From: Undaria pinnatifida
Lineage: Eukaryota; Sar; Phaeophyceae; Laminariales; Alariaceae
DNA length: 64,000 bases
Reading direction: 5' to 3'
NCBI GenBank assembly: GCA_012845835.1
Contig: JABAKD010000009.1
Span: forward strand, 8,645,413-8,709,412
Positions 4,234 to 23,700 of this stretch are shown here, in pieces. The position numbers were made by a program, and so were the translations under genes. Each line of letters begins with the position of its first letter. Positions within the stretch are counted from its first letter, which is position 1. The notes under the pieces are model-generated. The model was not told where the DNA came from and did not search any database. It worked only from the letters and a program-made list of their open reading frames with translations.

Positions 4234-4693
4234 GTGCGAAGCACGTCATCGCCACTCCTATGAAACTGCCGCCCAGTCTGCCGGGGATTCTCGCATGGCC
4301 GCCGCCACACCGAGCTCCAGCTCATAAGCTTCTAGGTCTTCGACGGACGGCGCCACCTCTGGTGGGAGACGGACAGGGCGGGAGCGGTAGCCTGACCGCC
4401 GGCACTCCTTGAATGAGCCAACGTGCAGCATACGGGGGGCAAGTTGGAAGAGTTATTACACGAGGGGACGAGTTATTAGGCGGGCGGAAGAGCTATCAGA
4501 CGAAAGGCAGAGCTATCAGACTAGGGGAAGATGCAGTACACAGAGAATAATTACTAGTCGAGGGGGGGAGGGGGTGTACTCATATCATGCATGGCCGTAA
4601 TCTGTCAAGCCATAGACCCTCGCATCCCTACTATGCTGGGAAGGAGCATACATTAGACAAGGGCAATAATTTACTAGACGAGCAAGCGTACAC

Positions 4694-4942: not shown

Positions 4943-7900
4943 CTGAAGTATACCAGTCCAGAAGAGGAGAACGAGGTGAGGGCTCATAGAGCACACTCGG
5001 GCCCCCACCCCGCTCACTCCTTCGTTACACCAAGACTACCCAATCGAGAGGAAACAATTCCTACGAGCAAAGCAGCACAATACCAGCGCCGTAGGTCCTT
5101 TGATAGGAGACTGACATATCAATTCACAAATCCGCAAGCATACACGCAGGTCTCTCCCAAATACTTTCTTCACCTGGTCATGGCATCGTTGGCAAACCTC
5201 GCCGCTCGATAAATCCGTCACCAAATATACGTGGTTGGACTTGTGCGCCCGACCAATATTCCAGCACCAGCGATTGTTTGCGACCTTCTCTTGTCCAAGG
5301 TCGAGTGTGTGTGTCAAAAATAAGAATCAGACCAGGGAGGCCAACGACAACCACACAAAACAAAAAAAGGGGGCGGGGGGGGGGGGAGGGCGGAAGACAA
5401 CCACACCAAAAAATAAAGGAGTTGTAAAGGTGGGACAGAGGGGGTTAAGTTGAGAGGGGGGAAAAAACAAGTGGCGAGTCTACGGTGCGAAAGTAAGGCA
5501 CACCGGTGCGGCGAAGAATACGGCGATAACGCCTCCTCAGTCACGGCTGTGCCTCAATCGCGGCTGTACTCAAGGCCAAGAAAACGAAAACAAAATCCCT
5601 AAACACCTAGACAACCACTGGGCAGCTCGAGATCCAACCAGGCCCGCTGCGTCAGTCCGTTCGGAACCTCCCAACAAACTTCTTTGTCGCTGTCAACATG
5701 AGCAGGAAAACGAGAAAAAAAAACTAGTCCCCGAAAGCCGCCAACACAAAATACACTCCCCGAGTCCACACCGAAGAACGCCTCCACCGCTTCTTCCAAG
5801 AATACGCCCACGATATACGGGCCATCGCGTTTCGGCCACGAAGGGTTTCTGACTGGAAGGAACTACCCAATTCGGTGGAAAAGTATGTATTTTTGGTGTT
5901 CGACATTATTATTAATTAGACACCTACCAGAGGGTTGGCCGTAAGATTTTTTCGTCGGCGTTGCACTTTCAGACTTGTTAAAGGTCAGCGTTTGGGTCGG
6001 TGCGGGTGTAGATAACTTCTCAAGCCAGGAGCTCCATAAATTAAAGATGCCGCCCTTTCGTAAAAATCACGCGTCCAAGCATCTGCTACTCTACCTGATG
6101 TGTCAGCTTCCTGGTGACCGCCGCAGACCCGCTCTTCACGCGCCGTTCTCCCGCCACTCGAGCCGCCCCGTTCCCTTCGACCCCGTCGCGTGATACTTCT
6201 CCAGCCGCGTAGCTCCACTGACGGAGATCGCCTCTCGGTCCTCCTTGGCAGATCAGCGTTCTGTTGGTGGGGGGCGGGGGAGCGGCACATATCGGATGCA
6301 TCAGACAGCTCCTTGGTTCATGATCAAGATATTTCCGGGCACAAGACCCTTCATTTGTGTGATCTGCACGACCTAGACGTGTTTGTCAGAAATGCCCTTG
6401 AGCTGTACTGTCTGCACGATCTATGTCAGAATACCCCTTATCTGTGTTGTCTGCACGATATAGGTACGTTTGTCAGAATCCCCCCAATCTGTATTTGTAC
6501 GATTAATAATGGATCGTGTTTGCCACAATACCCCTGATCTGTACGATCTGCACGATCTAGCTCGAATTCAGGGATTTTCACGTTCCAGCTAGAGTCAGGG
6601 TAACTCGTCCCGACCCGCGATATTGAAAAACCTCCTGACCCGATCCGACCGTGATATTTCAAACACCTCCTGACCCCGACCCCACTCCACCCGCGAGATT
6701 TCGATAACCTCCCGACACGATCGGTGGGTCGGGTCACGACCGGTGAAAAGCCCCGATCTGATTTATCAGGATACCCCTGATTTGCATTGCCTGCACGATA
6801 CGATCTACAGTAGGTCGTGCTTGTCGGGTAGGATCTGCGCGACACGGCTCTTGCGCATATGCTTGCCGGGCTAAGACTAAGAAGGGGGGGGGAAGGGGGT
6901 TGTCATCGTGAGAGCGGCGCCGATAGCTGTACCAACGTCGGCGGTAAACAATTACTGTAACACGATTAAGACATACGCCTCCTGATCAAAGATGTCTGAT
7001 GACGGCCCGTCACCCCCCAAAAAAACGAACATCGTTCATGGGCGTGTGCGGCCGGCGCATTCCACACTAAAACCTAGCATTCACGTATATGATAATAGCA
7101 TGCGTCCGCAACGTCATTTCTTTTTGGCAAAAGTTTTAATTCGTCCCCGCACACCTCTGAGCTTCCGCTATGAAGCATCTTTGCTCCTAATGGACATTGC
7201 GTGCGGCTTACCCGTTTCGTTCTTCCATCTACGACTTCTCCGAAGTTAACGAGCATTGTTGTCGGTCGGTCGGTCGGTCGGTCGGTCGCAACCAACGTAA
7301 AACTGCTGAGGTCAAATGTTGTCATGAAAACCATGGAATAGTGCTACGGCAGAGGTACGCCATCCTTTTTTTTGTTTCAAGATTCCTCACTTAACGCCTT
7401 TACAACTGGAAACCCTTTTTTTATTCCGAAGTTAGCATGGGGACGGATTTGGGGGCTCTAAAAAAGGGGGTTAAGGAAGAAGTTGTACTACCCCACCCAG
7501 CAAAGAGCGAATACAAAAAGGGCTATATACCCGATGATCCGTCCCATGGCCTAGGTATACGACCGAAATTATTGCCAAACAAGAACCAAATTCCGACGAG
7601 TGTGGGTTAAGAAACTCCGTCATTCAGAAAAATAAAAAGTTTCAGCCAAATAGTGCTACCTTAAAAAAAAAAACACACGTTCCTGGAGGAACCAAGGACG
7701 GTTATTGACGGGAAAACAGTGCCCCCAACGTAGCAAACGATCGGTCTATGGCGGTACTCGTAGCGACGGGCCGCAAAAGCCGTGCCACGAGAAAAACCGC
7801 GGAGCATCGCATAGTGACACAACAAAACAAAAAAATCGTTCACCCGTTCGGAACTGCACCCACATATTGGATACACTACTTGGAATTAGAGTAGAGGGTC

Positions 7901-10900
7901 ATTTTTGTAGTATAAATAGAAAACACAGGTTAAGGCAGCGTCGAAAAAAAAAATCTAGAAACGAAAAACGTCCACGCGCCTAACCTTACGGTATCACATG
8001 AGCGGAAAAAACAAGCTTACCTCAGGAAGGAATCAACTGCCGGGAAGGGAGATGGTCCGAATCCGCTTCCCGTCACTCCCCACCGGCCGCCACCGCTACC
8101 GCCACCGCCGCCATCGACCGAACCTTGCTGGCCTTTCCTCCGTCCGCCACCATCAACACCAACACCTTCGCCGCCACCGCCGCCGCCGCCGCCCGCCATA
8201 GAATGGCTCCCGTCCTTATACGAAGAAACCGTGGAATGCTGTTGTGGAGAAAAGTGGACCCTGCCATACCGCGAGTAACGGTGTTGGCCTTCCCCCTCGA
8301 CGGTGAGCAAATCTTCTTGAGAATGACGGACAGCGGGCACGACGAAAGAGTCGTGCTGCAGGCGGCAGGGAAGAAAAGGAGGTAACCGATCGGTGCAATA
8401 AAACGGACGGACGGGGGGGCTCTAATATTTCAATCGGGCGTCAAACACTGGGTCCAAAACGAACGAGACACGCCGGCAAGTAGTGACGCCTGTCTTGTTG
8501 GGGGGGGAGGAGGCGGGCGGAGGAGGAGTTGCTTTGGACCGCGCTCGGTCCCGCTAAGCAGCCGTTATTTCCAATACCCGCAAAACAGTTTCAGTAGTAT
8601 TAAGATACGAATTCAATCGCACCGTAGACACAATGCGTCAGACAAGCGATTCTTCATCCGTCGGTAGCTGGACAACCGCAAGCGTTATGCCGGCGAGGCA
8701 GGCAGCAGTGGCAGCGCGGGCTTTCCACTGGCGTTCCAAAGGGAAAGAAAACCCCTCAAGACAGAACAAGCAGTCACGGCGAGTCACGACGAAAGCGGCG
8801 CCCAAACACCCCAGCTTTCACACCGAATCGACCGAGATTCAGAACATCGCGCGTCTGGGTGGGGGACAAGATACGTACCAGGTGTCACTCTGGATGGAAA
8901 CATAGGGATCGTTTGGGGTAAAATGCATGAAAAAAAGTCGTTACATTTTCCGTCCGTAGCGGCATCACCGTTGTTGACCTCACCAGCATAGGTGCTCGCA
9001 GACAGCAGCTTTGGGCCCCGTCAGTCAGACCGTTCGATGATTCCACACTGAATCTAGTATATCACGTCTAGACAGCCGTCCGTCACATATGTTACATCTA
9101 GACGGCGCTCGTCACTCCGTCACATGTGTTACCTCTAGACGGCCGTCCGACACAGATGTTACATCTAGACGGTCGTCCATCACATACGCTACGTATAGAC
9201 GGCCGTCCGTTACATATGGTACGTCTAAACGGCCGTCCGTCACAGGTCTAAGCTTCCGTCTCCTGAAATCCTTGCTCACCAGTACCGTTCGCGCAGCGCC
9301 GCCTGAGTCTCGTGACATTGATGGGCGCGCCCCTCTCCGCTCCATGTGCTCGAGGGTCCGCTTGTTGGTTACCGCCACCTTCAACGCCGCTGACTTACCG
9401 TACTTGCTTGACCCCACCAGACGGAAGCAGCGGTTTCTTTTCACGGGCAAAAGAAAAGCGGAGACGAAGAGGGGAACAGAGGGGGGGGGGCGGAAAAGGT
9501 TGGAAAATCGGGGGAAAACGTTTAACATTTTTACTACCGCAATAATCATCCCACACTGATTCCAACACGTTTTCAAAAAAAAAACGTAGGTGTAGTTCTA
9601 AAGGAGTTAATTCTACATTGCGCCGTGGAGAGGGGGCTCGCACTGCTGCCGCGGCACACAACCTTTCGCAACGGGACCGCGGGTCATCCCCGCTGCGGCC
9701 CCCGCGCGCGTTGGCAGTGATCGTTTCCCCCTTTTCCCCCACGGCACCTTCGAGCAATTAAATGACGGCAGGCCAGACCGAGGCGCCCGATGTTTTTAGA
9801 GAACCAGATCCCGCGACGTTCGCCAAAAAACAAGGCACGTAACGTGTCCCGCCCGAATGCCGTCCGATGCAATCTCGTAACAACTTAATCCCCCGGGGAC
9901 GTGTCCCGCGCAAAGAAAACGATGCCGAGGAAACCCCTGGGACAACATAGTCTCCAGGCAACACTAAAAACACCGCACACCTCGTGTAGACGCTGACGTC
10001 CGCGAAGAGCACCGTGCGCCCGCTCCCGTCGTTGACCCACAGACTCTCCAGCGCGCCACCCCCGCCTCCCCCTCCGGCGGTTCCTCCTGCAATTGCGCCG
10101 GCGTCCACGCCCTCCGTCGCGTGCGCCGCATCACTCGCGCGACACCGCTGCGTTGTCTTATCCTCGGCTATCTCTCTCTCGGAACCCGCTCCGCTTAAGA
10201 GGCTGCCACCTAAGAAACCCGAGCGATGCGCAGCGACCGGCGCCACGCAATGGCCAACCGCACAACCAGCGATCGTGGCACTTGCGCTTGCGCCAGTGTC
10301 ATCCGCCGTGGCCATCGGCGTGGTCGCTGAGCGCGATGCATTGTCACGGGGAAATGCATCGCCATCGGTGGAGGAAAGGGCGGGAGTGGCAGCGGCAAGG
10401 GTAGCGGTCGCGTCCCCTCCACGTTCGCCACCGTCGTTCGAGGTCGGCGTGCTGGGGGATAGCGTGGAGGAAGGTCTCCAGCACTCTAGATCGGCGGCGA
10501 GGCTGTTGACGAATCTGCCAACGTGGGAGTTGTCCCGAAAGAGCTGTACGGATGCGACAGGGACAGGTAGAGAGGTGGGGTGGGTATGTTGAGGCGTTGG
10601 GGGGGCAAGGGCGTACTCGTATTATGCATGACCGTAGCCGTAAGACCACAGACCCTCGCAATACTGCAATGCCGGGGCGAGGCACATCAGGTTTGCATCG
10701 ACCAGGCAGATATTGCTTGCAAGCCGTGAGGTGTTCAGCGAGTAGCGCTAAACGTGACCTGCATCCTATTGTTACTAAAAACCGCTTATGAGGCGGACCT
10801 CGGCACCTTTTGCGTACTTTCGTGGATATGGATGACAGCGGGGGCGGGGGGTAGTAGACATACACCAAAAACACTGAGCTATCAAGTCATCGCTGACCAC

Positions 10901-13900
10901 CAGCTCAGTGGGTATGGTGTACAAGTACCAAAAACACACTGCGGGTGCCGTCTGGCTGTTTAGCTCAGTGGTTACAGGGTTCAACCAACAAAAACATAAA
11001 CTGGGTTCCGTCTGGCAGTTTGGCCCGGACCCCACATTTTCCCCCCCAAAAGGTTGCAAATCCTTTTACTGCAGTCAGCGCCGCTACATCGCGGAAAATT
11101 CCACGGACCTGGCCTCCTGGCAAGTGGAGGATCACGTGTCGGCTGAACTTTTTCGGCGTAGACGAGTCTAGGTCGAGAAAGTTCGATCCTCCGACGCTGA
11201 TGCGAAAGTCTTGGTGGAGTTTTCCTGGATAACGCATGATTTTCGGGAGATACGGAAAACTCTTATTACATGGTCAAGCGGTGTGGGTGAGAACGGGGTG
11301 GGTCCAGTTGCTATTCTAGGCCTGTTGCAAAGGCAGCGTGATAGTAAATATGAATCGGTTTTCCACACACGGGTACGCGGGCCCGGGGGGGGGAGGGTAG
11401 GTGCTGCACGAGCTTCTTATGTGTCTGAGGATGACGAGACGCACGGACGATCGTGGGGGTGCCTAGACACGAAGAATGTCTGATGCGCGGTATCGTGTTC
11501 AGTCCCCCGTACTCAAGAAACGGATTGTCTCCCGTATCGTGCCATGTATCGCTGTGGACTCCCCTGACATGGGGCGAATGCCGCGCAATACAGCTGAGTG
11601 AAAGCATGCACGCCTATATGTCAGTAGTAAACCCGCGAGAATATCCCAGAGGGCGGCCCCCGACGCCAGAGGGGGAAGAAGTGCTCGCAAACTTACTCTA
11701 GCCTAAAGCATTGCACGGGATTATCATTTTGCGAGTTGTTGACAGTCCTTAGTCGGGTACCAGCCCAAAGCAACCCGTTTCGCGCGAGACCTTCGAGCCA
11801 CATGAAAAGTATGTAAACTTTAAGGCTACGCCGGCTTCGCAAATACCATATTCTACGCTATCACCTCCAGAGAAAGGGCGTCAAAACCTCGCACACATCG
11901 GACAGCGACCTAGACCATCTAGATCCCAGTAAATCTGTCGTTATGACATGCTGCCCAGGGTCCGAAAGATCCAGTACAGGAAACTCGTGCTCGATCATGC
12001 AGACCACACGGCTCCACACCCTGGCACCATGATCTAGGACATGCATATCATAGACCAGGAATCTATCTGCGCTGAAAGACACAGATAATATAGATCATTG
12101 ATAAGGATCTGAGCTGTCCGGTGTATGAAACCTCGTCGACCGACCTACCCGCCACGACGTTGATCCAAGCGCGCACCAGCGCCTCCCCGTCCAGACCGGG
12201 ATTGCATGCGCGGGTGAACTCCAAGTCGAAGTACATCCTACACGGCGAACCCTCTCTGATGATCTCGTAAACATGCCACAGGGGTGAGGGACGGGAAGCA
12301 GGTCGCATCACCCCTAACGGAAGCCGCGATCCTTGGTCTGCGACAGGACCGCCCTGCGACCCCAGCCCCGATCCAGCGGGCGAGCATTGCGCCCCGGGAC
12401 TGTAGCGCACGGAGGTACGCCACGCGTCCGTCTGATCCGAGCCGTGCTCAGCTCGAAGGGGGCGCGCGGCCGGAGGTTGTGGTAGTGACCGGGGGCATGG
12501 GCGCCGCGTCTGAGCTTGGGAAAAGATGCACTTGCTGGGCGCGGCTGTGTAGGGGTAGTGGTCCTCGAAACGTCGGATGTCGCACACGAGAAATTTCCTG
12601 GCGGAGAGAGAAAGCAGAAACGCCATCGTTGATTCAGGGTGGGAGACGAAGGAGGGTTAGGGGTCGGTACGGATAATTCAGAATAACAAAATCCAAGGGG
12701 ATAAAAAGGAGGTCAACAGGTATATACTTGTGTTGGTTTTCGAAGGAGGAAGTCACGGCTACGGGTGACGGTCTCTGAAAGGGTGCCGCCGATGCGCCCG
12801 GATAAATCGCAGTACCCTCGCCGTCTGTCTCCCACACAATCATGAAGTCGAAGCGGCGGCGGCGCGGCGGGGTACGGCTATCACTGCGCGAAACGGAACG
12901 TCCCGCGAGAAGGAGAGCAGAAAAGTATTCCCATCTGCCTGCCTATACCGCTCGAAGCCGTTCGTGGAATCTCCCCCATCTCCGCCGTGCTGGTCTTAAG
13001 ATAAACTCGGCGCAACTAAACACCTCACGGAGTGGGTTTTACACGCACAGAAGCCTCGGAGCGCGGAACGTCGCGAGTGGGAAACGACGCGCGATTTATC
13101 CACCCCGCGAGCGATGCAGATGCCGTTGGGGCATGGCATAGAATGTCGCGAGCTACTAACGGTCGCGGGGGGCACATCGGGGCTTACCTGCTGCCGGTGG
13201 AGCTGGTTTCGAAGGACAGAACCTTGTAGCGGGCAGCATCGTCCGGCGCAAGCCTCGCCTCCAGAGCATCCACGTACGTAAACGCCTGCTCTTGTCGCCG
13301 GAAAACCCTGGGTGCCGAGAGGGGAACATGGGATGATTCCTTGTTGTACGAAACGCAGAGCGCAAGGGCGCAAACAAACCTGATGCTGTGCGTACCGTGT
13401 AAGTCATCACCGTGAGGGGGGAGTTTGGCGTATTACTTGTTCGCAGCAGAGATGTGAGAGGGCCTGTGCGAGCGAGGCAACTCTGGGGTCGAAGGGTAAG
13501 GTTGCGTTCTCTTCTTCGAGGGTCCTCAGCCCACAAGGTTCGTCGGCCGTGCTCGTGTCGCATGCGATAGAACGTAAGGCGAGTTCACCTTATGCCCCCA
13601 GAATCAGACGAAGCACGTTGTCGTGTGCCGCGAAAACGAGAAGAACGCAAGAAAAAATCAAGCTCGGCTGGAGTCTCGACTATAGTGAAAAACAAACGAC
13701 CTCCTCTGCATACACATCGGCTGAACATACCTGCGGGGGGCAACTACAACCGACCACACCTCCGTCTCTGCCATGTGCTTACCTTAATCCAGGCAACAGC
13801 ACTTCTCCGCCCCACCCACTCCCTTTGGACCTGGAGCCTCGATCGGACTCCAACGCTGCCTGCTCTGCGGCCCCGTTTTCCTGAAAGTCCCTGTACCGCT

Positions 13901-16900
13901 CGTGCAGCGCCTTGCGAAGGTTTAGCCACGAGTTTTTCACCTTTCCGCCCGTCCTCCTTTGAGGTGGCGGCGGTGATGGCTGCTGCTGAGACTGTGGCGA
14001 AGACGAGGAAACCTTGCTGCCTTCGGGCCAACCGTTCAATCTTTCTCCCAAGCCTTCTAAAGGGCGCTTTCTCGAGCGCCATCGATTGCTTGGTCCCTCT
14101 CCAGCTGGCGACCTGTCGGCGGTGCCCCCCCCGCCTTGCTCCTTTCTCCAGTCCTCGTTGTCTCCGCGGTCGCCCGGATCGTGAAGAGAGAGCACCACAC
14201 ACTTTTTGGTAGAGCCGTCGCGGACGTTTGGTCGCCTCCGGCCAGCACTGGTGCGCCGGCGGTTCGCCGGCGAAGCTACTAGAGGCCTTTCGGAGGGTGC
14301 GTCAAAGCGGCGGAGGGGGGGGGGGGGGGGGTGGAGCGGAGCGGAACCTTCTTGGCTTCGCGCTTGACTTGCATTACAACGCGCAATTAAGCGCGTCTAT
14401 GTATGGGCTTGGGTCGGGTCGCAAACATTCTTGATTGGCTACGTTTCCACAGCTACTGCCAAGCCCGATTTCCTTAGGAGCCCTCTGCATTCCTGTCGGG
14501 TCCATTTTCGTCCGCCACTCCGTACGGGGCGCAGGGGTGTTGTGCACGAATCGAACGAATGCATAACCCGTGCTAGCGAGGCGTACACGGCTACTCCTGC
14601 TGTACTACAAGTCGGCACGAGTCGAGAAAATAACTCTCCAAAGCATTTAACAAGGGTGCACGTCGAGCCACCTACAGAGCCCATGCCATGCCATGCGCTT
14701 CCTCAGCGATACAAAATCGTGGACCGCGCAAGGCAGAACCATCTCAAAGAAGACAAATGCACGCCATTTTACTCGTCCTCCGTCGCGCACCTTCGCCACT
14801 CCCCATCGGGGACGTCCACCTCCCCTTGCACTGCGATCACTGGTTTGCAATCTGCGTTGCCGCTGCTGCCGCCGCCACCGCGGCTCCCGCTGCCGCTTTT
14901 GCCGCCGCCGCCGCCATTTCTCCCATCGCTCACCAAACCCACCTCTTCTGCCTTCACCGGTGGGCTGCCAGTAATGCTGGCAAGCGCTACCACACGCTCG
15001 GGTGGAAACAGCGCCTCTTGGTCCTTTTCGTTGCCGGCGGGTTTTGGCTGGTCATTGAGAGCTCCAAGACCAGATGCGAGGCCGCCCCGCGAGATTCCGG
15101 CAGTCCGGACAAATGCGGGTTGGCTTCCAAGATCAAGACCCTGCGTCGCTGCCGAGGGCGCTCTCGACACGTCCATGGCGGGGGTGGTGGCATTAGTGGT
15201 CGCGGTACTGCTGCTACTGCTATCGCTGATAAGCTTCGCTAGGACCAGGTCAAAATTGACCGGAGGGTGGGGTAGGGGTCCACGAGCCGGTGGAGAGAGG
15301 ACGACGGGCTCAACGCGATCCACTACTTCCTTGCCTCCACTAACGGTACGCCCACCCTCGCGTGCAATAACGGCACCCCCACTCCCGTCAATCACCTCCC
15401 CAACTTTGAGGCTACCTCCGCTGCCTTGGTTCGCGAAGACGAACGAGGGCGTCAGGAATTCCGTCGGCGCGAGCTGTCGGCGTTCTGGCGTTGCGGCCGG
15501 TAGCGGCGGTGTCGCACCCACTGCACCTTCGCCCCCCGCTTTCGCCAACGCCGCCGTCTCCACCACTGCCACCGCCGGGGCAGTATCGTGGCCAGCAGCA
15601 ACAGCATCAGTGGTCGGCAGTTTTCGGGCGCTGTTGAAGTCTGCAGACCGTTCTTGTCCCCGGCGAAGAAGCCCGCTCAGGACGAGCGTGCAGCCGATTC
15701 CCAAGTGCAGAAGAACAGCGGGCGAGTCGAGCGCCGGCGAGTTCCTGGGTGACGATTGTTCGGTTTGACCCCCCGAGAGCCGTGTGCTGAGGAGAAGTGT
15801 ACGGGATGGGTAGGCGAGGTGGGGGACGGGTGGCGGTTAAACAGTCGATTCCCTCCCCGGTGTGGCCCTGGGCGATGAGTGGCGAGCAAACACGACGGAT
15901 GTGCGAAGCAGCAGCAACCTCACACCAAGCGGTGGCGAACAGCAGTTACGTACGGGAATCGTGTAGGGCAAGCGAGCGCGTCTCATCTCACATTGCCTCT
16001 CGCGGAATGTCCATGGCACTACCACCTCCTGCTGCCATCACGACCGCGTTGAGCAGCACAAGAGCACCGTCGGGCTCTTGTCGGCACCTGACCGTAAGGG
16101 TTCCCTGAGACGGCGCATCACAACGTTGCAAAATGCGCGAAAGATAGCAGTTAATCGTTCGGAGTCTTTCGGAGAGCCCATCTGGTCCACGGACGCCCTG
16201 CCTCGGTGGTACGTGCATCTCTACATCTCGCCAGGTTAAGAGCCACAAAATTGCACGGAGAGGGCCGTCACCGAGTGCTCGTACTGACAGAGCTGAGCCA
16301 TCCATAAAAATCGTCACGAGGTATTTATTTCCAACACGTAGACCTTCCGCGCAAACATCAGTACTCTGCTGTCGTATGAGTATGTACGAGCAATACGTGT
16401 CGTCTAGATCTGTACTGCTGCCGTAGTCTACAGCGGTTGTTTAGCTACAGAGTGCATCTCGTACTTCTACTTCCGAGTACGTGCGACTGCCAGTTCTTAT
16501 AAACAGCAGCAGCTCCTTTCGCCGTCGAGAGTGTGGCAGCTGTGCCGTTTTCAAATTACGATGCCGGTACATCACGCCCTGAAATGACACATGCATTCTG
16601 TAGGAGCATTCAAACCTCTATCCTCATGCATATCTGCTCTCGTACTGTTGTGTATCCGGCCCACCTTCCCCACGTCCTCCTCGGTCGCCGTTGAGGCATC
16701 CCGCACCGAGATCGCCTTCACCTCCCATTCATACTCGATCGGTTCAACAATGCCTCTGGTTGGCCGGCTTCCGGCGGCGGTCACAGCAGCGCAACCCTGT
16801 GACGCGCGGTCGACATCCGTTGGCGTACAGCTCCCAGGCAACGATGTTCTCCGATATTGGTAGCATGCGTCCCCCGGAGGACTCTTGGGGGCTGCTGCTG

Positions 16901-17150
16901 CTGCTGGAGCCGAGGCGGAGGATGGCTTGTGAGGAGTGGGCGTTCTTGGTACATAAGGTGCAAGAACATTTTTGGCGGCTGATTTTTTATGTAGCACATC
17001 GCCTGTTCTTGGCGTGGATTTGTTGTCGCTAATCTCAGAAAGACCTCGCGCTTGTTCTCTGCAGAAACGCGCTGCGGCAGCCTCAGCCGCGTCGAGCTCT
17101 TCGAAGAAGTCGTCGTCGAGTTGTTCTTCGTCTGCATCGTCGGCGTACAT
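4694..17150 (-). CDS. PRIMPOL: PrimPol, DNA-directed primase/polymerase (13-exon gene)
   Basis: PrimPol re-primes DNA synthesis ahead of stalled forks in nucleus and organelles. Exons: 17150-16665, 16104-15992, 15786-14791, 14286-13783, 13307-13188, 12597-12149, 11224-11109, 10543-9981, 9436-9280, 8355-8021, 6260-6197, 5284-5174, 4942-4694. All introns are GT-AG, all phases join, and the sum is 1,420 codons plus stop. The AEP catalytic set is present: motif I YFDLEF (exon 6), motif II DSSTPKKFSRH (exon 7) and motif III LFADVSVYTRNRCFRL (exons 8-9). A UL52-type zinc finger follows (RWCWNIGRAHKSN, QRCHDQ and EC across exons 12-13). Human PrimPol has 560 residues. The excess is an N-terminal extension of about 700 residues (exons 1-4, less certain) plus low-complexity insertions in exons 6, 8 and 10. 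The human LLVYD segment before the zinc finger is not found; a micro-exon may be missing near 5285-6196. Family identity is secure, the start is not. Confidence 0.85.
5174..5284 (-). CDS. PRIMPOL: PrimPol gene exon 12, zinc-finger core
   Basis: 37 codons in phase 0, donor GACCAG|gtgaag. It contains NNRWCWNIGRAHKSN and CQRCHDQ, matching human KYRWCENIGRAHKSN and YQKCHD: the Cys, His and Cys ligands of the UL52-like zinc finger, which human PrimPol needs for primase but not polymerase activity. The acceptor (GAGAAG) is unusually far from its pyrimidine tract. Confidence 0.92.
6197..6260 (-). CDS. PRIMPOL: PrimPol gene exon 11
   Basis: Acceptor 'cgccccccaccaacag'. Residues TLICQGGPRGDLRQWSYAAGE align with human SLVNKDGIKGGIRRWNYFFPE. 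The donor (GAA|gtatca) is weak but its phase joins exon 12. The short LLVYD segment of other PrimPols is absent. Confidence 0.75.
6340..6560. repeat. Tandem repeat, about 58-bp unit, 'ctgcacgatcta'
   Basis: Three to four imperfect units carrying CTGTACTGTCTGCACGAT and TTTGTCAGAATACCCC, with a related piece at about 6770-6830. It lies between PrimPol exon 11 and exon 10. Confidence 0.5.
6571..6757 (+). repeat. Small inverted-repeat element, family E, copy 1
   Basis: It shares 'cctcctgaccc', 'gatatttcaa' and the end 'ggtgaaaagcc' with a second copy at 31217-31390. The ends are inverted: TTTTCACG near the start and CGGTGAAAA near the end. No coding capacity; MITE-like. Confidence 0.55.
7257..7289. 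repeat. (GGTC)n microsatellite
   Basis: Seven to eight uninterrupted GGTC units in the PrimPol intron between exons 10 and 11. Confidence 0.8.
8021..8355 (-). CDS. PRIMPOL: PrimPol gene exon 10
   Basis: Acceptor 'gccgcctgcag', donor CCTGAG|gtaagc. It reads HDSFVVPAV..., then a Gly/Val/Asp low-complexity insertion of about 45 residues, then FGPSPFPAVDSFLR, which matches human FQCSPYPEVDHFVL. Confidence 0.88.
9062..9250. repeat. Minisatellite, about 30-bp unit
   Basis: About six copies of a unit built on CTAGACGGCCGTCCGTCACATA, in the PrimPol intron between exons 10 and 9. The unit has a multiple-of-three length and stays open as a ten-residue repeat, but this looks incidental. Confidence 0.65.
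9280..9436 (-). CDS. PRIMPOL: PrimPol gene exon 9
   Basis: Acceptor 'gcccgtgaaaag', donor GTACTG|gtgagc. The split Arg codon joins exon 8 to give VYTRNRCFRLVGSSKYGKS, matching human VYTRNRNFRLYKSSKIGKR almost residue for residue. Confidence 0.92.
9981..10543 (-). CDS. PRIMPOL: PrimPol gene exon 8, AEP motif III
   Basis: Acceptor 'cgcatccgtacag', donor ACGAG|gtgtgc. It starts LFRDNSHVGRFVNSLAADLE (human FKDNIHVGNFLRKIL) and ends LWVNDGSGRTVLFADVSVYT with the third catalytic Asp. Between them lies an Ala/Gly/Thr-rich insertion of about 120 residues with a Gly run, longer than the human linker. The opposite strand is also open, as expected for GC-rich repeats. Confidence 0.88.
10605..10850 (-). 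repeat. Interspersed repeat family B, inverted copy in PrimPol intron 7
   Basis: Reverse-complement match to the 3' half of copies at 3690, 28865 and 29665 ('accctcgca', 'gcttgcaagccgtgaggtg'). Read on the PrimPol strand, its C-rich end runs into the pyrimidine tract of the exon 8 acceptor at 10543. Confidence 0.6.
10865..11000. repeat. Short repeat with 'gctcagtgg' boxes
   Basis: Three phrases with 'agctcagtgg' or 'gagctatca', followed by GGTGTACAAGTACC-like words. Related fold-back copies lie at 44655-44740 and 54700-54835. Confidence 0.4.
11109..11224 (-). CDS. PRIMPOL: PrimPol gene exon 7, AEP motif II (SxH)
   Basis: Acceptor 'cgttatccag' in phase 1, donor GGCCAG|gtccgt in phase 0. It encodes FLDLDSSTPKKFSRHVILHL, aligning with human LNLDSSTDEKFSRHLIFQL. 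S and H of FSRH are the motif II residues that help bind the incoming nucleotide. Confidence 0.92.
11890..12130. repeat. Inverted-repeat element, family D, copy 1 (MITE-like)
   Basis: Ends CACACATCGGACAG (11892) and CTGTCCGGTGTATG (12114) are inverted repeats. The inside is 'ctagatc'-rich. It sits in PrimPol intron 6 and ends 20 bp from the exon 6 donor. Other copies are at 18516-18776 and 23706-24440. Confidence 0.6.
12149..12597 (-). CDS. PRIMPOL: PrimPol gene exon 6, AEP motif I (DxE)
   Basis: Acceptor 'ttctctctccgccag', donor GGCGG|gtaggt. It opens with KFLVCDIRRFEDHY (human IYLVTTYAEFWFYY) and ends with WHVYEIIREGSPCRMYFDLEF...NPGLDGEALVRAW. The catalytic D and E lie at about 12219-12227. 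About 80 Pro/Arg/Ser/Gly-rich residues sit between the two conserved parts. The frame stays open, but a donor AA|gtgcat at about 12531 could mean a small intron. Confidence 0.85.
13188..13307 (-). CDS. PRIMPOL: PrimPol gene exon 5, start of conserved AEP core
   Basis: Acceptor 'ggcacccag', donor CAGCAG|gtaagc. It encodes VFRRQEQAFTYVDAL..., matching human RLFHRQAQAFNFV, followed by KVLSFETSSTGSR in the place of VFALECKVGDGQR. Confidence 0.85.
13783..14286 (-). CDS. PRIMPOL: PrimPol gene exon 4 (predicted)
   Basis: It enters in phase 2 after 'ccctccgaaag' and leaves at TTAAG|gtaagc in phase 2. Basic and Ser/Pro/Gln-rich sequence gives way to a helix-forming stretch (LNLRKALHERYRDFQENGAA) that leads into the conserved core in exon 5, in the place of the basic helix at the human PrimPol N-terminus. 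The donor and join to exon 5 are convincing; the acceptor is weaker. Confidence 0.6.
14791..15786 (-). CDS. PRIMPOL: PrimPol gene exon 3, long disordered segment (predicted)
   Basis: A 332-residue open stretch after the strong acceptor 'cacttctcctcag', ending CGAAG|gtgcgc. It is rich in Ala, Gly, Ser, Pro and Val with no domain seen, and looks disordered. The opposite strand is also open over most of it (14431-15768), but that frame lacks matching splice sites and reads as Pro/Leu/Arg antisense low complexity. Confidence 0.5.
15992..16104 (-). CDS. PRIMPOL: PrimPol gene exon 2 (predicted)
   Basis: Acceptor 'gccgtctcag', phase 0 in; donor AAT|gtgaga, phase 2 out. It encodes GTLTVRCRQEPDGALVLLNA and a short Ala/Gly tail. 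Both splice sites are strong and the phase fits exons 1 and 3. No known domain was recognised. Confidence 0.5.
16665..17150 (-). CDS. PRIMPOL: PrimPol gene exon 1 (predicted start exon)
   Basis: 162 codons from ATG at 17150 to a GTGGGC donor. The first 30 residues carry an acidic-aromatic helix (EEQLDDDFFEELDAAEA), then basic, Ser/Pro/Ala-rich disordered sequence, then a more ordered stretch (IEYEWEVKAISVRDAS). The upstream frame has no other ATG before this one. Its link to the PrimPol core rests only on strand, spacing and compatible phases, so it could instead begin a separate upstream gene. Confidence 0.55.
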
Positions 17151-17606
17151 GACAGCCTTCGCAGCAAGAGGCAGGGTGCGTCGTCCCTCGTGGATCAAAT
17201 TTCAAATTTGAAGGAGACGCCTCATGTAGGGTTTCGTAGAGAAAAATAAGCGTTTATCGAAACCGTCAACCAGAAACCTCGAAACCTCGAGCTGAACAAG
17301 TGTCGTTTCGACTAAACTGCGGCGATAAAGTTCCTGTTCGTTCGTTGACGACATATAAGACGAGGGTGCCCAGTGAGAACTCGTACGAACGAATGAGTAA
17401 ACCCCAATAGTCCCGTACGGCGGTATTAGTTGGTGCGTGTATTGAGTGGAAAAATAGCCAGTCGGTTGACTGGAACACTCCTGGATGGGCTCTTTTGATC
17501 GGTACAGTCGGCGGACAGACGTGCACATTGACGACAAGTTGAGGCAAGCAACCATTTGTCATCGTCGTTGCTGTCGTCGTCGTCGTCGTCGCCGCCGCCC
17601 AACGAC
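17151..17606. promoter_or_regulatory. Shared upstream region between PrimPol and ODA1 (putative bidirectional promoter)
   Basis: 456 bp separate the two predicted, divergently read ATGs. It holds a direct repeat 'cgaaacctcgaaacctcga' (about 17275-17295), a CG-rich 'gtcgtcgtcgtcgtcgtcg' tract next to the ODA1 ATG, and no TATA box in a typical place. Its promoter role is inferred from layout only. If ODA1 has further upstream exons the region is larger. Confidence 0.4.
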
Positions 17607-17714
17607 ATGAACCAGAGGGCGGTCACCGATGCCATCGCGCAGCTTCAGGCTAAAGGAGATGTATTCATTCGCCAGGTTATCATCGAGCAGAGGAGGGTGG
17701 ACGACATTACTGCT
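17607..17714 (+). CDS. ODA1: ODA1 exon 1
   Basis: ATG to GCT|gtgagt, 36 codons. IAQLQAKGDVFIRQVIIEQRR corresponds to the family segment with EGDTYxRKIxxEKRRIDEL. Because this is not the extreme N-terminus in other family members, an upstream exon could be missing. Confidence 0.65.
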
Positions 17715-20700
17715 GTGAGTGGTTATAAAAAGTATAGTCTAGTCTAGTGTGTTGGCTTGGGCGAAGAAAAAGGGTACAGTACCAGGTATGCACTTGCAAG
17801 GATCAACATTGTCGTTCATGGACTGAAACCCACGTGTGGCCTCCACGAGAGCTTGTTAAACCATATGGAGTGTGTTTGAGTACGAATATTAGTGCTACAG
17901 CAGTATTGTATTCAAATTGCACTGAACTGCAACCTCCATGGGATTTGTAATGTAAGCGCTGTTCATGTTCGCATCTGGAACAACTTGTTCGGCAAGAAAA
18001 CTCCAACGGATGTAAAAACAGAGCCACCATCATTTGCATGCCATGTAAATAAACATGCCTCATACAACAGTGAGACAACTGCAACGGATGTAAAAACAGA
18101 GCCGCCATCATTTGCATGCCATGCAAAGAAACATACCTCACAGAACAGTGAGACAACTACAACGGATGTAAAAACAGAGCCGCCATCATTTGCATACCTC
18201 GTACCATGTCAAGAAACACACCTCATACAACAGCGAGACGACTGTAGTGGTAAAAACTGTGAGTTCTTCCGAGAGGTCGATACTCGACTTTGCAAGCTGC
18301 CCATGATCGATCGGTCGCGCGTTTTCTAGACGCATTCCACGGCGAAGGACAAGACGGTGACTCCCTTGGATGCTACCAGGGTCAGCAGGACGATACTCAC
18401 TCACAGACACGATTCCCAAACGGTCTTGGCCTATACCTTTCTGTACAAACCCGGAACTAAAAAGGCCCGCATCTCGATGGGATGGGGAGAAGGCCATACT
18501 ACGTTTGGAAAGCTACCACACCTCGGACAGATCATGGTCTGGACCATCTAGATCATCTACAGCACATCCCGTATCTGCCGTCATGACATGTTATGCTGGA
18601 TCCGGACCTATGGAGTACAGATGCAACCAAGGAGACTTGTGCTGCTGTAGATTATACATGTCGTACGGCTCCCACCGGGTAGCATGAGCTAGGCCATACA
18701 GCTCTTCCATGAAACATCTAGTCTAGATTTTTCTTAAAAAAGAGTAAAAATCGAGGATCTGTCTGAGATGTGAAAGTTACCTAGCTACCTGCCACCTGGG
18801 GTATCCGATATGTTCCTAATTTTGGTATATACTCCCTGTGCATAATCGCAAGCCAGATTATAGCTAAAAAAATGAGCGAGTTGGGACGATCTTGACCCTG
18901 CCAGGTACTTCTGTACGAATACTGGTATTGCAGGTACTGCTACATGCACGTACCAGGTAGTTCTTCTGTATTATCTGTCGTTGTCTCACCGGTATACCCG
19001 GTTGCTGACCGCCTTGCTCGCGGTCGTAGAGAGGTCATCACACCTGAGAGCTGACATATAATTGCAGACAGCCAGGTTATTCCTGTGTGCGAAAGCAAAA
19101 ACGGCCGTTCATGTCGTCGTGCCCGTGTTGAATACCTCCAGCACGAGACTTACGTGCTCGTGGGTTATAAGAGCTATACAACCAGCATGGTTATGTTTTG
19201 TTTTTGTTTTGTTGTGTTGTCCGCGCGTTGCGATATCATGCTGCTGTGTGCGCACCCCCCCGACGGCACTTTCTAACAGGCGTTGCGACAAGCGAGGAGC
19301 GAGATAGACGCGCTCCGGCGAAGAACGAAGACAGGAGCAATCGATGTTTTGAACCTTCACAGGCAAGACCATATTACCACGGATGTTTTGAACCTTCACA
19401 GGCAAGACCATATTACCACGGTTGCCACACATGCGCATAAACATGTACCTGGGAACACGCAAGTCGTCCATCGGCAGAACTCCATCTCCACCTTTCCGCG
19501 CATTTCGGGGGTTCGGTGCCTGAATCTACGCACATGTGGTATTTACCAACGTCATTTAAGCGCTAAGTAGACATAGGACCCATGACGCCCCTTGCGGTAA
19601 TGTCGGGGCGGAGTAGCAACGGCAGAGCATACGAATTGCATAACGCTCGTGGTATGAAACATCCCCGATATATACTCGAGCTGGGTGTAAACCTTGGTGA
19701 TGCTATTCCCCTTTCTCGCTCCTGATTTCGCCAGGACGACGCCCAATCCTGCACACCAGCGAGCCGACGGACTCGACCCCACCAAGCAGGCGGACCAGAA
19801 CCAAAGAAAGCTCGTCGCAAATTTGGAAGCGCGACTTAACAAGGTAAACATTGTGTTGCTCCATAAAGTGGGCTGTGCAATGAAATTATCTTTCGCCGTT
19901 CGACGAAAGAAGTTGAGCGGCGACAACCGCTTGAAACATGGTGTCCATGTGACTCTACCTACAGTGCTGCTCGTCGTGATTTTTTCGGCCATCGTCTCAT
20001 TTTAGATCTTCCCCTGTCACATCGCCTATTTCCGTGCGTTTTTTTTCGCGGCGTTAAACTGAAAAAACACATGCACAAAGTTGCTTATCAGGCATAGCGA
20101 GACCGCTTGTGTTCTCTTACGGTCGCCGTTCAAGTTTTGGTTCTACTATCTTACCGCCAATTTCCGCGCGTTTTTTTTAACGATACCCAACCGCAAAACA
20201 CACACAAAACAGTTGCTTATCCGGCATAGCGAGACGGTCAACGGCAACGCCGAACTCAAACAAAAGATCAACCACCTTCGAAAGGAGCGCACGACAACGA
20301 ATGAGGTTCACGCCAGCTACGAGGCCAGCATCCTTCAGCTCCGCGGGGATATAACAAGCCTCATGGCCCAGGCATCGGCCGTCAACGACCACCGTGAAGA
20401 GCTTGTCAAGACCAGAGAGGTAACGCTCCTAGGATGTTTGCGAGATATCAAATTTGTTTCGGGTACGAAAAGTATATAATCATAGTATTGAAACCGACAA
20501 ACGGCACAACCCAAAGTCAACCCAACCCACGAAAAACTAGTTATTTACGGTCAAAATGGGCATTTTAACGCACAGTCCTAGAAGTATCCATCCAAAGTGT
20601 ATTGGTCGAGATAACTGAAATTGGTCGGGATGACTCCAACCCAACAAACTTCACAAAAATTTGAGCAACACCCAAATCGGGTTTTTAGAACGTTTTACGT

Positions 20701-23700
20701 CGTGATTTTGTGATTCCAACCCAGTAGAAGTTGGTAATTCTCAAACAGCCCAATGGCGATGCGGGATCAACCACGACATGGCTCTGTTGCATGACTAAGT
20801 TATCTTGTGGGCAGTGCTATTTTACCAATGCCATCGCGAAGAGCTTGTTAAGACCAGAAAGGTGCGGCGAGTATGGCGTCGCGGACTCAACAACGAAATG
20901 GGTCTGTAGGTTGTACACTACCCAGCAGACTATAAAATGACGTGATAAAGAGGTCTCGTGGGTAGTGCTATGTGTTCAACTGTTGAATTTATAGCGTTGG
21001 GGGGGGTAGGCGGGCACGGGCGAGGGGGGGAGGGGGAGGGGGGAAGGGGAGGGGGGGTGGCGTAGGGGACGGGGGGAAAGGGAGGCGTAAAATGTTTGTA
21101 CCACGTGGTCACGCGAATAACTAATCTACAGTAGTTGTACATCCAACAGAGCAGAGTCTTTCTATGGGTATTAGGTGATAAAAGCAGTGACCCCTGTATG
21201 AGCGGTAGGGAGCAGATCTCTAGCATTGCGGCAAAAATCGGATTGTCTTCCGATTGTGTGCACAAGTCAGTGCGCTACTGCCATAGTAGACGCAAACATC
21301 AACGCATCTTCTTCTTTTACTTCCCCCGGCTCATTATTAATAGCCGTTACTTGTACAGGGTGGGCGCGGCTTAGCGGTTGCTTAGCGGTTGCGCTCAGCG
21401 AAGAAATTGCCGAACACTAGTACATAGCTGGCACGTATCGAAGGCCTACGCCAACGTCTACTACGTAAGCGGTATACGGGTGTACGACACTGTCGGTACT
21501 GGTTTCGGTAATGTCGCCTGAGCTGAAAGAAAGCGAACACATGTTCTGCCGCGCCTTCCTCCTCCACGTCGTGCGTTGACACCTCCGCGCGCTCTGGGCA
21601 TAAAAAATCTCGCGCGCATCGAACAGATCAGATCACGGATCACAATATATACCCTGCAGGGCGGATATATCCCCGGTCTATACATGATATGCATGGTCTA
21701 CATCATCACTGCTGAATGGGATCCGTATCATCTGCATGGCCTAGCACTTATTTTCTACCATTGGTAGGTTGGAGCTGTACTATACAGATCCTTCACATAA
21801 TATCCTAACGGCAGATGATCTAGATGATCTAGATGATCTAGATCATGATCTGCCCGTTGTGTGAATTGAACTCTTGGCTTTCCTCGTGGCCCGCAGGATG
21901 CGCTTATCCAGAACAGGGAGGCGACAAAGCGCTTCGACACGCGAATGGGCGAGCTGTCCGATTTCGTCGAAATGCAGGTTCGTAAGCGCACCACACGACG
22001 CAGAGTTGTTTTTGGCCGATGCTACTCCTCGGCAAACGGCTGAAAAAAAGCAGAAGCTACCGTGTGAGTCGACGGTTTCGCCTACGGCCGATGTTAAGCT
22101 TCTTCAGCATCGAAACACCGTGCGTCGCTTGTTTGGCACGATGCCAAAAAAAAAACGGGTGCAGCCAGAAAGTACGCGGTCGCAGATCACGTTCGCCCAG
22201 TGGGTGTGGCCATCGTTTTTTCTTTTGGCGATAAATCACTGCCGAAAAATAAATCTGCTGGAGGCATCCGCTCCCACAGCACTACTTACAGCTCACCTAG
22301 GATATGGTGAGAGGGGGCGCGTTTTAGGGCGCTACAGACCCTATTTGGTTTGCAATGTTGAGCTTTCACAATATTGGGATGGGATTTCTTGTTACGCTTT
22401 TTTGGCTTTTTTTTCGTTCCATTCTTGAATAAGGTGTAGAGCCAATCTGCTGCCGTCAGGAGCGGAAAGAGGTGTATAGAACACCTGGCAATAAACGAGT
22501 ACAATAGGATATGATGCTACAATACTGTTTACCCTTGGTGTTTTTTCGCTTTTTTTCATCGTCACTTTTGGTCTCCATTTCAACCTCGTACGAGGTTTGT
22601 TCTACCCTCAGCGACGTTACGGACAAGCTTTGGTCACGGGTGCCCCCCCCCCCCCGCCCCCCCAGTACATGCCTTTATTTTTATCGCGCATAGGGTTGTG
22701 CTTTCCCGCTTTTCAGATTTTTCTATGCTCGTCGATTATCATCGAATTTTGCTATGAGGCTGGGACCGTGTCCCATCGGTAATTCAGCAGCCTCCTCAGT
22801 GTTTCGGACATTTATTCGATTTTGAGGCCATTTTTTACTGTTTTTTTCCAATGTGATAATGCACTGATCACATGAAAGCATCGTGACAATTCACACGCGA
22901 ACGAACACCCAACAAGGCTGAAGACAACCAAGTATTTCGTATGACCAGAAACACGAAAGCGTTCACGAGTGGGCACAACTGGAATGCAGTCCACAAACAC
23001 CGAGAGGCGCCGCATGTGATACACGGCGCAAGTTCGGGGGACGTGGCGGCTTGGGTTTTGGAAACCAAAAGGAGCAAAAAGCCCCATTCTTTTTTGTTGT
23101 TTCGTCAGGTTTTCTGTAAAAGCAGACAGCAAAGAAATGGTGAACAGAATAACAGCAAAAACTATCGTACCACACTTCCTGTTAATGGCTGCTGTTGCTG
23201 TTCTCACATTGAATCGTCCTCGCCATTTTCCAATTCGTGTGTTCACGGGACAGGCTCCAATCACTCTCGAGTGTAATAATATGTTGGATACAATGGCAAT
23301 ATTGGCCAGACCGCTCTCTCACTCACACAGTGACCAAGTGATCCATAGCGGATAGTTGGCTACAACCAACAAAAATACTAAATACATAGTCGCCGAGAAA
23401 AAAACAAACAAACCGAAGGGGTCCACATAGCTGCCCCCCCCACCCCCCGCCCCTCCCTCCCCGGGCGCCCGCGCGCCCCGTCCAGAACGAGCGGTTCGAA
23501 GAGAGCGTGGACAGGGCCGCGAAGGAGGGGAAGGACATGAAAAGCGCTCTCGAACTGGTGGAAATATCGGGAAACCTTAGCGTCGACGAGGAGGCTGTTA
23601 TGCGCGGCCGCTTGGAAGCGTTGGAAGAGGCCGAAGAGAAGGAGCAGGCCAACGACAGAGCCATCGAGGACAGGATAAAGGTACGTGTGCGTTTCTCTTT

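Follow-up and report, generated by a model that had tools for sequence, protein, structure and literature searches.

The window, a 64,000-nucleotide stretch of DNA from the brown alga Undaria pinnatifida, carries a PrimPol gene on its minus strand, at about 17150-4258, whose AEP core and zinc finger are of the ordinary kind; it is the only PrimPol gene detected in this alga. The core aligns to human PrimPol with E 6.3e-33 when low-complexity insertions are left out of the alignment, and phases match at the joins between its exons (13307-13188, 12597-12149, 11224-11109, 10543-9981 and 9436 onwards; all PrimPol exons given here lie on the minus strand). Exon 5 (13188..13307) begins the AEP core with VFRRQEQAFTYV and aligns with the human protein from residue 43. 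All three catalytic motifs, as defined for AEPs (PMC5295015), are present and, like the exons that hold them, were placed by human alignment and phase: motif I (DxE) as YFDLEF in exon 6 (12149..12597), motif II (SxH) as FSRHVI in exon 7 (11109..11224), and motif III (hxD) in VLFADVSVYTR in exon 8 (9981..10543). Exon 9 (9299..9436; NRCFRLVGSSKYGKSAALKV), placed in the same way, has a provisional 3' end, and is adjoined by a minisatellite with a 30-base unit in 5.7 copies (9067-9244). Low-complexity insertions lie within the core itself, ahead of motif I in exon 6 and, as a linker, ahead of motif III in exon 8.

The core is followed by a UL52-type zinc finger of three cysteines and one histidine (C-H-C-C; RWC..AH..RCHDQ|EC), divided between two exons. 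The first (5174..5290, 5' end approximate; WCWNIGRAHKSN...CQRCHDQ) was identified from its translation and its match to Pfam PF03121 (E 5.1e-6, above cut-off), the sole match in a profile search of the whole 511 Mb genome. The last exon (4258..4407), placed by eye and with a weak acceptor (-0.8), supplies the fourth zinc ligand (CHDQ|EC) and a short acidic tail, and the frame stops at 4258. The ligand spacing C-H-D-x-x-C is the same as in human PrimPol.

Upstream, positions 17151..17606 separate the candidate PrimPol start codon from that of a divergent neighbour, whose ATG (17607, plus strand) is 457 bases from the PrimPol ATG at 17150. This head-to-head neighbour (17607-21978, plus strand) encodes a coiled-coil protein with its best Pfam match to ODAD1_CC, of the outer dynein arm docking complex; with the neighbour's exons joined by eye, the match has E 5.7e-6 and, at 26.1 bits, falls short of the cut-off (27). 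A tandem repeat of period 78 (17995-18195; 2.6 copies, 92% match) lies between the neighbour's first two candidate exons, and an exact direct duplication of 39 bases (19343-19421) overlaps the end of another candidate exon.

We next consider the sequence between 17150 and the core. Exon 4 (13783..13991), the last before the core, ends in a strong donor (13783, AAG|GTAAGC) that scores 7.1 with a generic matrix; among the sites listed only the donor at 13188 scores higher, at 7.3. The 13783 donor can be joined to 13307 in the phase that the core requires, and the join yields LRVFRRQEQAF, with RLFHRQAQAF as its human counterpart. The exon 4 frame is open back to 14396, and its 205 codons include no methionine, so translation should begin further upstream, barring a non-AUG start. 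The codon score of exon 4 is itself weak, exceeding 75% of controls. By eye, the stretch SWLNLRKALHERYRDFQ of exon 4 (W..K.L.ER) resembles the DNA-contacting helix at the human N-terminus, but the likeness did not rise above shuffled sequence: 331-672 of 2,000 exon 4 shuffles did as well, as did 380-656 of 2,000 when the human segment was shuffled instead. A stretch of exon 1 scored higher still, and we make no use of the likeness.

Coding potential further upstream was assessed with whole-codon scores, with frequencies taken from this genome's own conserved exons for chaperonins and AAA proteins (2,950 codons in domains and 1,767 in long frames); these were adopted because synonymous usage, learned from 1,379 codons of chaperonins, failed to separate the PrimPol core exons from other frames. 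The 590 control ORFs come from locus flanks, some of them overlapping, and may include true neighbouring exons. Candidate exon 3 (14791..15786; acceptor at 15786 or 15744, donor at 14943 or 14791), a low-complexity frame, has the best coding signal of the extension. Read from 15786 to 14943 it scores higher than 96% of the control ORFs and than 5% of 41 conserved exons, and it scores 0.014 against -0.31 and -0.33 for its own shifted frames; its codon log-likelihood, relative to a background that is not GC-matched, is +49 bits, rising to +61 if the exon is extended to 14791. Among parses forced through the 13783 donor, those starting inside exon 3 reached at most 38.4 and those starting after it 1.7, against 83.8 for the best upstream start. 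Unconstrained, all of the 12 top parses used the exon 3 frame and a start at 16728, and 5 of the 12 used the 13783 donor. From this coding signal, and from best parses that join exon 3 to the core, PrimPol likely has a long N-terminal extension, which judging from its composition is probably disordered; a long low-complexity tail alone is unremarkable for this gene, since core exons 6 and 8 carry low-complexity insertions as well. On the plus strand opposite exon 3 there is an antisense open frame of 466 codons (14368-15765), probably the shadow of a GC-rich coding exon. A repeat origin of the extension was considered and set aside: a DNA search for other genomic copies, with a tool that passes over simple repeats and highly frequent words, found only a short GCC-type stretch (about 14847-14925), in 13 places.

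The built model places 637 residues before the core; carrying exon 3 on to 14791 would add about 50. The figure of about 700 residues given by the sequence-only reading is thus within reach, on an exon set that is provisional: the boundaries that we use are predicted ones, and in the best parses exon 4 is split and exons 2 and 3 begin at different acceptors. That reading's estimate of more than twice the human length holds under the extension model: counted over the exons down to 9299 and those from 5290 on, the residues identified (1,099 to the provisional end of exon 9, then 39 in the zinc-finger exon and 49 in the last one) already come to more than twice the 560 of human PrimPol.

Two candidate exons lie ahead of exon 3. 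Exon 1 (16665..17150) is as the sequence-only reading described it: the ATG at 17150 begins MYADDADEEQLDDDFFEELDAAEA... and opens a frame of 162 codons to a GT donor at 16665 (AAG|GTGGGC), in phase 0. Exon 2 (15992..16365) is an open frame entered in phase 0 and left in phase 2, with weak splice sites and uncertain boundaries. The codon score of each is higher than 88% of the 590 control ORFs (12% of controls score as high as exon 1); for comparison, the proven PrimPol exons 6, 9 and 8 exceed 86%, 86% and 91%. Exons 1 and 2 score below all 41 conserved training exons, as do PrimPol exons 6 and 9, and their codon log-likelihoods are neutral (-6.0 and -3.7 bits). By synonymous codon usage, the exon 1 frame has no advantage over its own shifted frames. 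Searches found no second copy of exon 1 in the genome and no relatives of it among IMG/VR viral contigs. The assignment of exons 1-4 to PrimPol is uneven: exon 4 is tied to the core by phase and the lack of methionine, and exon 3 by the parses, whereas exons 1 and 2 are codon-neutral and other starts parse about as well. On balance we favour placing exon 1 in the PrimPol mRNA, with which its open frame, donor and phase are compatible.

The extension may instead be real and the PrimPol transcript start in or near exon 2, leaving out the DDDFF peptide that exon 1 encodes; exon 1 would then be untranscribed, part of a 5' non-coding region, or a small ORF in its own right, with about 191 codons. 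Such a start is consistent with the neutral codon score of exon 1, with the continuation of its frame past the donor as far as a stop slightly below 16575, and with parse scores by start, in which 16728 (83.8), 16301 (82.0) and 16218 (77.1) come near to or exceed 17150 (79.2; its best parse takes different acceptors for exons 2 and 3 and splits exon 4). Against it, the frequency of G at codon position 1 of exon 1 is 0.44, whereas the two shifted frames give 0.25 and 0.17, and the first ATG of the 162-codon frame bears a motif that fits PrimPol biology. We regard a start that excludes exon 1 as rather unlikely.

It is improbable that the region holds two genes, with exons 1-3 ending at the TAA at 14769-14771, where the exon 3 frame does stop, and PrimPol beginning just downstream, for example at the ATG at 14742, with an N-terminus nearer the human length. 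A parse from this ATG into exon 4 exists, with a score of 1.7, and parse scores summed over two genes are compatible with such an arrangement. However, the stop of the first gene and the start of PrimPol would be only about 26 bases apart, too close to accommodate a 3' UTR and a promoter, and the product of exons 1-3 would have no Pfam match.

If translation begins at 17150, as we favour, the protein carries the motif EEQLDDDFFEELDAAEA at residues 8-24 (17079..17129), which we consider a candidate RPA-binding motif, a good fit to the RPA-binding motif RBM-A of human PrimPol (residues 514-528) in its complex with RPA70N. L11-D12-D13-D14-F15-F16 is in register with human residues 517-522, so that L11, D12, D13, F15 and F16 pair with I517, D518, D519, Y521 and F522, from the contacts described in PMC5457501, and L11, D13 and F16 supply the hydrophobic, acidic and aromatic residues of positions 517, 519 and 522. 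The pattern [ILVM][DE]D.[FYW]F, picked after the sequence had been seen, does not occur in 217,382 background residues (2,174 six-frame ORF peptides of the same genome, mostly non-coding and from loci that in part overlap). The bare 517/519/522 pattern occurs 179 times in this background; the model protein has it a single time, beginning with L11. Among 5,000 shuffles of the extension, DD.[FY]F appeared in 0.06%, a looser pattern in 7.3%, and some loose RBM-like window in 34.7%. By BLOSUM score against RBM-A, 23 of 163,698 background windows are as good, for an expectation of about 9% over the 638-residue extension, and the motif (18) is close to an unrelated stretch of the core (17). The likeness to the human motif proposed by the sequence-only reading therefore stands in register and contact pattern, and is weak by substitution score and by loose windows. 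QLDDDFF was also compared with the PIP box, and its spacing is off the consensus. According to a passage in a review, human PrimPol does not bind PCNA.

The same reading had found no such motif at the C-terminus, a claim that needs qualifying. The last exon has 47 residues beyond the fourth zinc ligand, too few for a full-length equivalent of the human RPA-binding domain (residues 480-560). Within this tail, the stretch SVEDLEAYELELGV is acidic-aromatic and passes a loose RBM test, without the 517/519/522 contact pattern; the RBM-A-type contact pattern sits in the candidate first exon and not in the C-terminal domain.

The prospective partner of the motif is present. A genome-wide search returned one match to Rep-A_N, in an exon with a provisional 3' end that aligns to human RPA70N with E 9e-8; among the matches listed for this exon, 13 of 26 chains are RPA70, and the remainder are weak armadillo-repeat matches. 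In the human complex the key contacts are of I517 with R43 and R91, of D519 with R31 and R43, and of F522 within a pocket of S55, M57 and V93 (PMC5457501). In the alignment R41, R43, R91, S55 and M57 are identical, R31 is replaced by lysine and V93 by alanine; the partner surface is largely kept. Partners of RPA70N share composition more than sequence (PMC10479964).

We suggest, as the best explanation of the whole yet one to which we give somewhat less than an even chance, that the sole PrimPol of this alga has a disordered extension of about 640 residues beginning at 17150, with an N-terminal site for RPA70N docking and tethering. The transcript would most likely include the 17150 start codon; like human RBM-A, the first helix of the protein (LDDDFFEEL) would bind in RPA70N's basic cleft, with D13 directed to the positions of R31 (lysine in the alga) and R43, F16 to the S55/M57/V93 pocket, and L11 to R91; and the long tail would be a flexible tether bringing the primase to RPA-coated DNA. 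RPA70N binding, and with it a role in repriming, is predicted by analogy to the human enzyme. That exon 1 belongs to PrimPol and its motif is an ordinary acidic low-complexity stretch, with the RPA contact either lost or situated in the short C-terminal tail, we hold to be of low probability: the motif's background windows of equal score, the loose windows in shuffles of the extension and the loose match of the tail are consistent with it, whereas the absence of the contact pattern from the background residues and from the tail argues against it.

More tentatively, the RPA contact of PrimPol may have left the C-terminal domain in this lineage and come to lie at the very N-terminus, with a disordered tether of about 600 residues replacing the short C-terminal linker. 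RPA binding guides where PrimPol reprimes; in a model based on the human enzyme, the polarity of RPA on DNA would set the zinc finger beside RPA and the catalytic core downstream (PMC5295015). If the relocation is true, RPA recruitment would no longer fix the position of the zinc finger, and repriming would be possible over a wider range from the edge of RPA. With a PrimPol held by a long linker at its opposite end, nature would have provided a test of whether this geometry matters; such a protein would also illustrate how an enzyme can stay conserved while its short acidic recruitment motifs turn over and change position.

Within a limited literature collection we found no paper on PrimPol in brown algae or Ectocarpus, and nothing useful on amino-acid repeats in brown algae. 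A search of IMG/VR viral contigs with the PrimPol core identified three loci, and a search of the same contigs found no relatives of the exon 6 frame. Two of the viral PrimPol-like proteins (L033, 4971-5867; L035, 4986-5885) carry VYTRNRCFR, identical to the algal exon 8/9 junction, and share the core fold family by sequence at 29-30% identity; at 298-299 residues, they lack the extension. Arabidopsis PrimPol also has an N-terminal extension missing from human, described as 90 residues in which transit peptides and nuclear localization sequences may lie, and RBM-A is conserved in plants (PMC8523556); the algal extension, in contrast, is of about 640 residues with an acidic start. An acidic-hydrophobic RPA70N-binding helix at the N-terminus, as the algal motif would be, is described for human ATRIP (residues 53-69) and yeast Ddc2 (PMC10479964), but the F55-L60-L63 spacing of ATRIP is absent from the algal motif, and within the extension it is a different window that scores best against ATRIP. 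Exon 1 was also considered as the first exon of an ATRIP gene, and specific similarity was absent. The algal motif is closest in kind to human RBM-A, being both acidic and aromatic and facing a partner cleft whose arginines are mostly retained; RBM-A is C-terminal in the human protein, whereas the algal motif would stand at the very start of the protein, with more than 600 residues between it and the core.
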